Source: Armatimonadota bacterium | GTDB taxonomy: Bacteria; Sysuimicrobiota; Sysuimicrobiia; Sysuimicrobiales; Kaftiobacteriaceae | Assembly (NCBI GenBank): GCA_031081675.1 | Contig: JAVHLZ010000005.1 | Coordinates: 12,881 to 76,880, forward strand | Reading direction: 5' to 3' | DNA: 64,000 nucleotides | In this document: positions 1-2,287 of the stretch, in pieces | How positions within the stretch are numbered: the stretch's first letter is position 1 | How the letters are laid out: each line of letters opens with the position of its first letter | The notes under the pieces: generated by a model | Database searches by the model: none | What the model was told of the DNA's origin: nothing | Seen by the model: only the letters and a program-made list of their open reading frames with translations | Position numbers and translations under genes: made by a program

Positions 1-2
1 AG

Positions 3-92
3 GTCGAGCAGCGGCTTCCGGAGATCGTGGCCTCCTTGCTGGGCCTGCCGGGTCCTGCACAGGCATCCGCCGGCCCGAAGGAGCGGGGATGA
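3..92 (+). CDS. C-terminal end of an unidentified protein (5' truncated by the window)
   Basis: An open frame enters from the window edge and stops at a TGA at 90-92, giving about 29 residues rich in Leu, Pro and Ala and ending KERG. It is the only frame that runs in cleanly and ends just before the operator-like repeats. The fragment is too short to assign. DUF3307 genes often sit beside SatD-family genes, so a SatD-like protein is one possibility, but nothing visible in these residues proves it. Confidence 0.4.
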   Translation, partial: VEQRLPEIVASLLGLPGPAQASAGPKERG

Positions 93-113
93 CACGGCTA
101 CTGGCATCCACCG

Positions 114-208
114 GTCAATATAAGCGTATTGACACGTTTGCCGGTCAATAGGCACCGTGTCAATATGTACGTATTGACGTTGTGTGACGTCAATGCTTCC
201 GTATTGAC
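114..208. repeat. Array of GTCAATA / TATTGAC half-sites, operator-like
   Basis: Four GTCAATA-type half-sites start at 114, 144, 159 and 189 (the last reads GTCAATG). Three TATTGAC half-sites start at 127, 172 and 202. They form three inverted pairs GTCAATA-N6-TATTGAC (114-133, 159-178, 189-208) plus one lone half-site. All same-strand offsets are multiples of 15 bases (30, 15, 30 and 45, 30). The array fills the gap before the DUF3307 gene. It looks like a binding site for an oligomerising regulator. Several TATTGAC copies could also serve as -35 elements, but no convincing -10 was found with them. Confidence 0.6.
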
Positions 209-245
209 CGGTCGGGCAGGGAAGCTGGCGGATGGGACGGATAGC

Positions 246-972
246 GTGATCCTCACCAGACTGATCCTGGCCAGTCTTCTGGCGGATTTCGTCTTCCAGC
301 CGCCACGCCTGGTGTCCTGGAAGTCACGTGCATCCGCCGGTCTGCTGGTCCACGGGGTGATCCACCTCGCCCTCACGGCAGCGGTGGACGTGGGATACTG
401 GTCCGCCCGGTGCCTGGTCCTGGCGGCAACCCTGGCGATCGCGCACCCTGGCGGTGGATGCGGCGAAGATCCGGATGGACCGCGGTCACTCTGAGGGGTA
501 CTGGCCGGTGGCCACGTTCCTGGGCGACCAGGCCCTGCACCTGGCGGTCATGGTCCTCTGCGCTGCCGCGTTCGGGTACGATGGCATCGGCTGGGCCTGG
601 CCGGCTTTGGCGGCCAGCCTGGCGCCGGCGTCCGTCGTCGTCGCCATCGTATACGTGGCCACCCTGTTCGGGGGCGCCGTCCTCGTGCGGCTGGTGACGG
701 ACGTCTTCCGCCCTCCCGCCTCCGACGGCCGGAGGCTTCCCGCAGGCGCGGGGGCGTTCGTCGGTGTTGTCGAACGCCTGATGGTGACCACGCTGGTGGC
801 GCCGAACCAGTATGGAGCCGCAGGTTTTGTCCTGGCCGCCAAGTCCATCGCCCGCTACCGCAGGATCGAGGAAGAGAAGGAGTTCGGCGACTACTTCCTG
901 GTGGGGACCCTGACCAGCATGGCCCTGGCCATTTTGGCGGGGCTGGCGGTGCGGCGGGCCCTGGGGTGGTAA
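246..972 (+). pseudogene. DUF3307 family membrane protein, interrupted by a +1 frameshift
   Basis: The N-terminal half reads in one frame from GTG 246 with the DUF3307 hallmark LLADFVFQ followed by VHGVIHLAL. The C-terminal half reads one frame over, continuing LAVDAAKIRM and later FLGDQALHL to the stop at 970-972. The join is at CAC-C-CTG, in the CCC run at 446-448: removing one C gives a continuous product of about 241 residues, a normal length for the family, with several hydrophobic segments. Without the shift the upstream frame ends at 494. It may be a true mutation, an assembly error or, less likely, recoding. The stop lies 4 bases before the pyrimidine-nucleoside phosphorylase start, so it would head that operon. 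The function of DUF3307 is not established. Confidence 0.7.
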
Positions 973-976
973 GACG

Positions 977-2287
977 GTGGCGCGCGCCTACGAGCTCATC
1001 CAGAAAAAGCGCGACGGCGGGGAACTGACCCCCCAGGAGGTCGCCGACCTCCTGTCGGGCTACCTGTCCGGGCAGATCCCCGACTACCAGATGAGCGCTT
1101 TCCTGATGGCCGTGTACTTCCGGGGGATGACCGCCCGGGAGACGGCCGAGTTCACCCTGGCCATGGTCCGCTCGGGCCGCACCGTGGACCTCAGCGCCAT
1201 TCCCGGCGTGAAGGTGGACAAGCACAGCACGGGGGGCGTGGGCGACAAGACCTCCCTGGTCCTGATCCCCCTGGTGGCCGCGGCCGGCGCGCCCGTGGCC
1301 AAGCTGTCCGGGCGGGGGCTGGGCCACACCGGCGGCACCATCGACAAGCTGGAATCCATTCCGGGGTTCCGGACCGAGATGGACCTCCGGGAGTTCGTGG
1401 CCCAGGTCATCCGGATCGGCTGCGCCATCGTCGCCACCACCGCCGACCTGGTGCCCGCGGACAAGAAGCTGTACGCCCTCCGCGACGTCACCGCCACCGT
1501 GGACAGCATCCCGCTGATCGCCAGCAGCATCATGAGCAAGAAGATCGCCGGAGGCGCCGACGCCATCGTCCTGGACGTCAAGACCGGCAGCGGCGCTTTC
1601 ATGAAGACCCTGGACGGCGCCCGGCAGCTGGCCCGCGTCATGGTGGACATCGGCGCCCAGGTCGGCCGCCGGACGGTGGCGGTGATCAGCGACATGGACC
1701 AGCCCCTGGGCCGGGCGGTGGGCAACGCCCTCGAGGTGGAGGAAGCCCTGCAGACGTTGCGGGGAGACGGGCCGTCCGACCTGCGGGACCTGTGCCTGAC
1801 CCTGGGGGCCCACATGGTGGTCCTGGCCGGTCGGGCCTCCGCCCCCCCGCAGGCGCGGGAGATGCTGCAGCGGGCTCTGGACAGCGGGCAGGCGCTGGAG
1901 AGGTTTGCCCGGATGGTGTCCGCCCAGGGGGGCGACCCGCGGGTGGCCGACGACCCGTCCCTCCTGCCCCGGGCGCCGGTGGTCGTGCCTGTTCCCGCTC
2001 CTGCCGGCGGTGTGGTGGAGGCTGTGGACGCCCAGGCCATCGGGCTGGCGGCGATGGCCCTGGGGGCGGGCCGGGCCACCACCACCGATGTCATCGATCC
2101 CGCGGTGGGCATCGTCCTGGAGCGCAAGGTGGGACAGACGGTGGGGCGCGGTGACCCCCTGGCCAGGGTGCACGCCCGGGACCGCGCTCGCGCGGAGGAG
2201 GCCGTGGCGCGGGTGCAGCGCGCGTACCGGATCGGCCCGGCCGCGCCGCCCGCCCGCCCGCTGATCTGGGAGGTGGTGGGCGGGTGA
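977..2287 (+). CDS. pdp: Pyrimidine-nucleoside phosphorylase
   Basis: Phosphorolysis of uridine or thymidine to the free base and (deoxy)ribose-1-phosphate, a cytosolic pyrimidine salvage step. The 436-residue product has the usual family length and layout: helical N-terminal domain, then the phosphate-binding signature VDKHSTGGVGDKTSL near residues 80-94, the glycine-rich LSGRGLGHTGGTIDKLE that follows, and SSIMSKKIAGG in the middle. The GTG start lies directly after the DUF3307 stop, and the end overlaps the next gene by GTGA, so it is translationally coupled to the kinase-like gene. Assignment as Pdp rather than thymidine-specific DeoA is by overall resemblance; the two are hard to separate by eye. 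Confidence 0.93.
   Translation: MARAYELIQKKRDGGELTPQEVADLLSGYLSGQIPDYQMSAFLMAVYFRGMTARETAEFTLAMVRSGRTVDLSAIPGVKVDKHSTGGVGDKTSLVLIPLVAAAGAPVAKLSGRGLGHTGGTIDKLESIPGFRTEMDLREFVAQVIRIGCAIVATTADLVPADKKLYALRDVTATVDSIPLIASSIMSKKIAGGADAIVLDVKTGSGAFMKTLDGARQLARVMVDIGAQVGRRTVAVISDMDQPLGRAVGNALEVEEALQTLRGDGPSDLRDLCLTLGAHMVVLAGRASAPPQAREMLQRALDSGQALERFARMVSAQGGDPRVADDPSLLPRAPVVVPVPAPAGGVVEAVDAQAIGLAAMALGAGRATTTDVIDPAVGIVLERKVGQTVGRGDPLARVHARDRARAEEAVARVQRAYRIGPAAPPARPLIWEVVGG

Follow-up and report, generated by a model that had tools for sequence, protein, structure and literature searches.

The question raised by the 64,000-nucleotide stretch of Armatimonadota bacterium DNA analysed here (contig JAVHLZ010000005.1, positions 12,881 to 76,880, referred to below as the window) is what would bind a short array of GTCAATA and TATTGAC half-sites at 114-208, between the end of a satD gene and a gene of the DUF3307 family. 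The answer put forward, with a probability of about 0.82, is that the array is an operator for SatD itself, whose predicted binding would control DUF3307, probably as a nucleotide-responsive repressor. The parts of this proposal are not equally firm. That SatD binds the array we strongly infer; repression is its most likely mode of action; and control by a nucleotide we infer from the fold and the conserved residues alone.

The array is real, as the first-pass annotation of this DNA had held. Six exact half-sites fall within 95 base pairs (bp) and none elsewhere in the window, against 0.61 expected per 64 kb, and none of 100 shuffles reached six. A seventh half-site, GTCAATG at 189-195, carries one mismatch, and the description of three identical N6-spaced dyads was therefore slightly overstated, two being exact and the third not (Table 1). 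The N6 spacers are not alike between dyads. Spacings between half-sites are 30, 15 and 30 bp on one strand and 45 and 30 bp on the other, all multiples of 15 as had been reported, but the 15-bp repeat unit deduced from them does not hold. What repeats, once per 30 bp, is a 20-bp dyad, with half-sites that start alternately 13 and 17 bp apart and a single 15-bp register shift between 144 and 159; across the family the unit is 27-30 bp. The further suggestion that the sites lie on a repeated face of the helix fails because 15 and 30 bp correspond to 1.43 and 2.86 helical turns, neither of which is whole. The lone half-site at 144-150 is probably what is left of a decayed dyad. GC content is 44% in the array against 73% for the window, and in a periodicity test the array scored z=9.0 at period 30. 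No further place in the 2.29-Mb genome matched the dyad with up to two mismatches.

The first-pass annotation had proposed looking for a gene for a helix-turn-helix (HTH) protein upstream of position 1, and satD lies directly there, ending 21 bp before the array. SatD consists of a cyclase/GGDEF-like domain followed by a C-terminal HTH, and its C-terminus is matched by HTH families. A search of 43 genomes from the order, allowing at most one mismatch, found the GTCAATA dyad only in the window genome (G000) and in G003, a member of another genus, and in both only at satD/DUF3307; in G003 identical words with identical 6- and 10-bp spacers lie between the two genes. The proposal that a regulator binds an array ahead of DUF3307 thus fits, and the misgiving attached to it, that the motif might be absent before orthologues and equally common in coding sequence, is not borne out. 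Two congeners of G003, G006 and G008, carry a different word, GTCA[TG]ACC, with a period of 29 in the same place, and their recognition helix reads KQSVSKSLR as against KQAVSLGLR.

The same arrangement was sought across the family in 146 SatD loci spread over several phyla: a first set of 76 and a second set of 70, the latter drawn from G245's phylum plus a single genome of the phylum of G116. Thresholds, axis rule and residue position were fixed on the first set, leaving the second as the sole test. An initial scan for exact 5-mers was less sensitive and gave way to a two-unit dyad test scored against dinucleotide shuffles, which in the first set exceeded z=3 in 36 of 146 flanks and in none of 139 control windows. 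When the period was left free between 16 and 60, z≥3 was reached at 92 of the 146 loci (42/76 and 50/70). The period was 27-30 in 33 first-set and 45 second-set loci and 56-58, a double unit, in a further seven and five, so that 90 of the 92 lie in one or other range; the two exceptions, both in the first set, gave 37 and 42. The 27-30-bp period was obtained under all of the several settings used. With the period held at 27-30 and the laxer threshold of z≥2.5, 64 of the 70 second-set flanks scored, against 2/61 and 1/65 control loci (3/126 in total). In 59 of 76 first-set and 63 of 70 second-set loci the gene immediately downstream of satD is DUF3307. Loci of one phylum are related and these counts are therefore not counts of independent events; the dyad axis is also ambiguous in some arrays (TATCGG can equally be read as CCGATA). 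In five genomes or records, all nine exact TTAGCC dyads were located at satD. The gene pair, satD then DUF3307, is also present on plasmid records of Vibrio lentus, Salinivibrio, Segatella copri and Sphingomonas insulae, with clear arrays on those of V. lentus and S. insulae. A profile search of genome contigs with the SatD alignment returned only three records, all of the window's own family, and a search of the phylum of G176 gave no new SatD. Judged by sequence, most of the SatD loci examined carry an array of their own beside DUF3307, with lineage-specific words and a shared 27-30-bp period. The window, with such dyads beside satD and DUF3307 directly downstream, belongs to this class of loci as defined here. 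What the first-pass annotation did not foresee is that most of the regulator's family has such arrays, in words that differ between lineages, and that the window's DUF3307 frame is broken.

Further evidence that SatD reads the array came from covariation between protein and DNA. In the first set the residue that follows AVS in the recognition helix tracks the base that lies 4 or 5 positions away from the dyad axis: among loci with a C or G consensus, K or R occurs with C in 20/20 and Q with G in 14/14, while another five loci with K or Q show A or T. In the window and G003, L193 is paired with T. This rule was spotted by eye in the first set, so that only the second set tests it, and was put in writing before the second set was gathered. 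In the second set K never occurs with G and Q never with C; many K/R loci with IWKR or IYRR helices gave A, not C. For this reason the rule, as read from these loci, applies within a single helix class; as a universal code it is rejected. Over both sets the counts are 30/30 for K/R with C and 19/19 for Q with G, loci with an A or T consensus being excluded. In a phylogeny built from just the N-terminal domain each trait, residue and base, changes seven times. Independent pairs number seven on the best tree, and four when only well supported branches are counted; none of these four disagrees. Fisher values of 7e-10 (first set) and 5e-14 (combined) ignore relatedness and are not chance probabilities. 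A near-sister pair with 55% identity illustrates the change, G570 having QQAVSK with TACAACC and G674 QQAVSQ with TACAAGC, and on the V. lentus and S. insulae plasmids K is again paired with C.

In the proposed mechanism the C-terminal HTH of SatD would recognise the GTCAATA half-site, two HTHs would occupy each 20-bp dyad, and the 30-bp recurrence of dyads would allow several SatD dimers to bind side by side, perhaps in contact through their cyclase-like N-terminal domains. The array would act on its own locus alone, that is on DUF3307 and perhaps also on the phosphorylase gene behind it, and repression would change with a nucleotide that the N-terminal domain binds or makes.

Several observations weigh against this proposal. 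No sigma-70-like promoter was found in window positions 1-300, and the geometry of repression is for that reason not visible in the window. About a third of SatD loci fall below z≥3; their arrays may be weak in sequence, lie on a missing flank or be truly absent. Most SatD paralogues without DUF3307 show no array, z≥2.5 being reached in only 2 of the 11 (L053, L054, L069, L071, L073-L075 and L078-L081). The A or T loci left out of the covariation counts and the deviating IWKR and IYRR helices belong here too, and the four well supported pairs are too few for a significant sign test. Finally, the window's DUF3307 is frameshifted, and the locus may therefore be decaying.

In one alternative, SatD would still occupy the array but would activate the locus, or coat the DNA as a structural protein, in place of repressing. 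The lack of a sigma-70-like promoter overlapping the window's array speaks for this, as does the lack of one at 88 of 111 arrays, and the repeated geometry would suit polymer-like binding. A sigma-70-like -10 element lies in or near the remaining 23 of the 111 arrays against 6.7 expected from mononucleotide shuffles, a rough control, and this excess suggests repression. In the GC-rich loci L034, L037, L084 and L085 a TTGACA-N17 promoter places its -10 near the dyad centre, the usual place for a repressor. Activation or coating is unlikely, though far from negligible. An unlinked regulator, with SatD a mere neighbour of its sites, would be a distinctly improbable explanation on the sequence comparisons made here, since the dyad words and the SatD recognition-helix residue change together between lineages, and since the arrays adjoin satD in several phyla while their words are confined to those sites in the genomes tested. 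That the repeats instead serve recombination or replication, or belong to a mobile element (Xer-type sites, iterons or repeats of the repetitive extragenic palindromic type) could draw on the tyrosine recombinase gene upstream in L004 (XerD-like by reading of its open reading frame), the plasmid copies and the branching of the assembly just before the array, but is very improbable indeed, there being one array per locus, always adjoining satD, with no copies elsewhere in the genome and with words that follow the SatD helix and not a recombinase.

The nucleotide control proposed for SatD draws on its predicted fold and its conserved residues. The AlphaFold2 model of the window SatD is confident (predicted local distance difference test score 93) and its fold matches, at modest template modelling (TM) scores, Rv2242, class III cyclases, GGDEF proteins and mCpol; a sequence search of the PDB with the single window protein gave no match. 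Rv2242 (PDB 9f80), a regulator of the CdaR/PucR type, likewise joins a cyclase/GGDEF-like domain to a C-terminal HTH and is the best whole-length fold match (E 7.5e-4), although with a TM-score of only 0.31. The window SatD has neither GGDEF_2 nor a PucR-type HTH at E≤10 and is not assigned to that type; GGDEF_2 matches are weak and occur in only 5 of 67 SatD proteins, and SatD differs from the CdaR/PucR type in retaining both metal aspartates and in having its own periodic arrays. The core fold is common to SatD, the class III nucleotide cyclases and mCpol (Ma1120; Panoptes OptS). Two aspartates, conserved without exception across the SatD alignment, line up with the metal-binding pair in the cyclase Ma1120, so that SatD has the metal-binding residues of a class III cyclase, but its best profile match to these enzymes is not significant (E 0.16), the window SatD has no Guanylate_cyc match, and the HTH is an addition that they and mCpol lack. 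Regulators of the lambda CI/Cro type are locally encoded HTH autoregulators with several operators. SatD resembles them in that its gene stands beside a few dyads at which cooperative binding is probable, and differs in being unrelated and in keeping a 27-30-bp dyad period across phyla as the words change. DUF3307 is predicted to be all-helical, with invariant His, Asp and Gln; a fold search of the PDB found no match (best E 1.0). PADLOC gave no useful match.

A wider and rather doubtful suggestion is that SatD and DUF3307 form a mobile cyclic-nucleotide signalling module in which SatD would sense or make the signal and bind its own array, DUF3307 would be the membrane effector or receptor, and the whole would perhaps serve in a stress response or in phage defence. 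The hint comes from the invariant metal aspartates of SatD, from DUF3307 genes without an adjacent satD, which in 6 of 9 non-randomly chosen loci are preceded by a gene for an HD_5-domain, cyclic-nucleotide-binding, CRP-type or class III cyclase protein, and from one plasmid copy that adjoins a Pycsar-type effector and a cyclase. In this copy, on the Sphingomonas insulae plasmid (L178), a TIR protein is also a neighbour and the array between the two genes reads TCAACC-N6-GGTTGA. SatD and DUF3307 are widespread families without known function, and the array offers SatD a testable role, DNA binding at its own locus with a target gene. Within one helix class the residue-to-base rule makes operator letters predictable from the protein, and since spacing stays constant across phyla while words vary, the family provides a natural series in which to follow the co-change of regulator and operator. 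In the full-text literature, which leaves subscription papers, such as older work on the streptococcal sat operon, outside its coverage, no paper on a SatD-array system was found; DUF3307 and the 'SatD family' were each named in a single paper, in passing, and PF16264 and PF11750 were not found.

Table 1. Array elements and neighbouring genes (window positions), with the DUF3307 loci that lack satD
Feature	Position or locus	Strand	Remarks
Dyad A, GTCAATA-N6-TATTGAC	114..133		Exact; half-sites 114-120(+), 127-133(-)
Lone half-site GTCAATA	144..150	+	Exact; 10 bp after dyad A, 15 bp before dyad B
Dyad B, GTCAATA-N6-TATTGAC	159..178		Exact; half-sites 159-165(+), 172-178(-)
Dyad C, GTCAATG-N6-TATTGAC	189..208		One mismatch; exact half-site 202-208(-); centre 30 bp past dyad B centre
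satD, C-terminal end (…VEQRLPEIVASLLGLPGPAQASAGPKERG)	3..92, stop 90-92	+	PF16264, 78.9 bits (gathering score 29), E 5.6e-22
DUF3307 gene	246..972	+	GTG start 37 bp past array; frame broken
Pyrimidine nucleoside phosphorylase	977..2287	+	Glycos_transf_3, Glycos_trans_3N, PYNP_C
DUF3307 genes without adjacent satD, after cyclic-nucleotide-type or HD_5 genes	L005, L007, L010, L016, L018, L022		

The complete satD lies upstream of the window (L004:12069-12773), and its GTG start overlaps the stop codon of the preceding gene, which by reading appears to encode a purine nucleoside phosphorylase. The window starts immediately after a 100-N scaffold gap whose two flanking contig ends share exactly 99 bp (L004:12682-12979), and positions 1-99 are therefore present twice in the scaffold. 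The assembly break falls 15 bp before the array and may for that reason reflect strain variation there. A single extra base in the CCC run at 446-448 (window 441-455) breaks the frame of the DUF3307 gene, whereas the frames of relatives are uninterrupted; the first part matches PF11750 at 33.6 bits (gathering score 23), both parts match a DUF3307 model built in this analysis, and the break may be an assembly error or mark a real pseudogene. In the two satD paralogues that were read, L053 and L054, the next gene after satD encodes a membrane protein on the opposite strand. The pyrimidine nucleoside phosphorylase behind DUF3307 is probably under the same control, and is itself directly followed by an AAA_33 kinase-like gene at 2284-2835.
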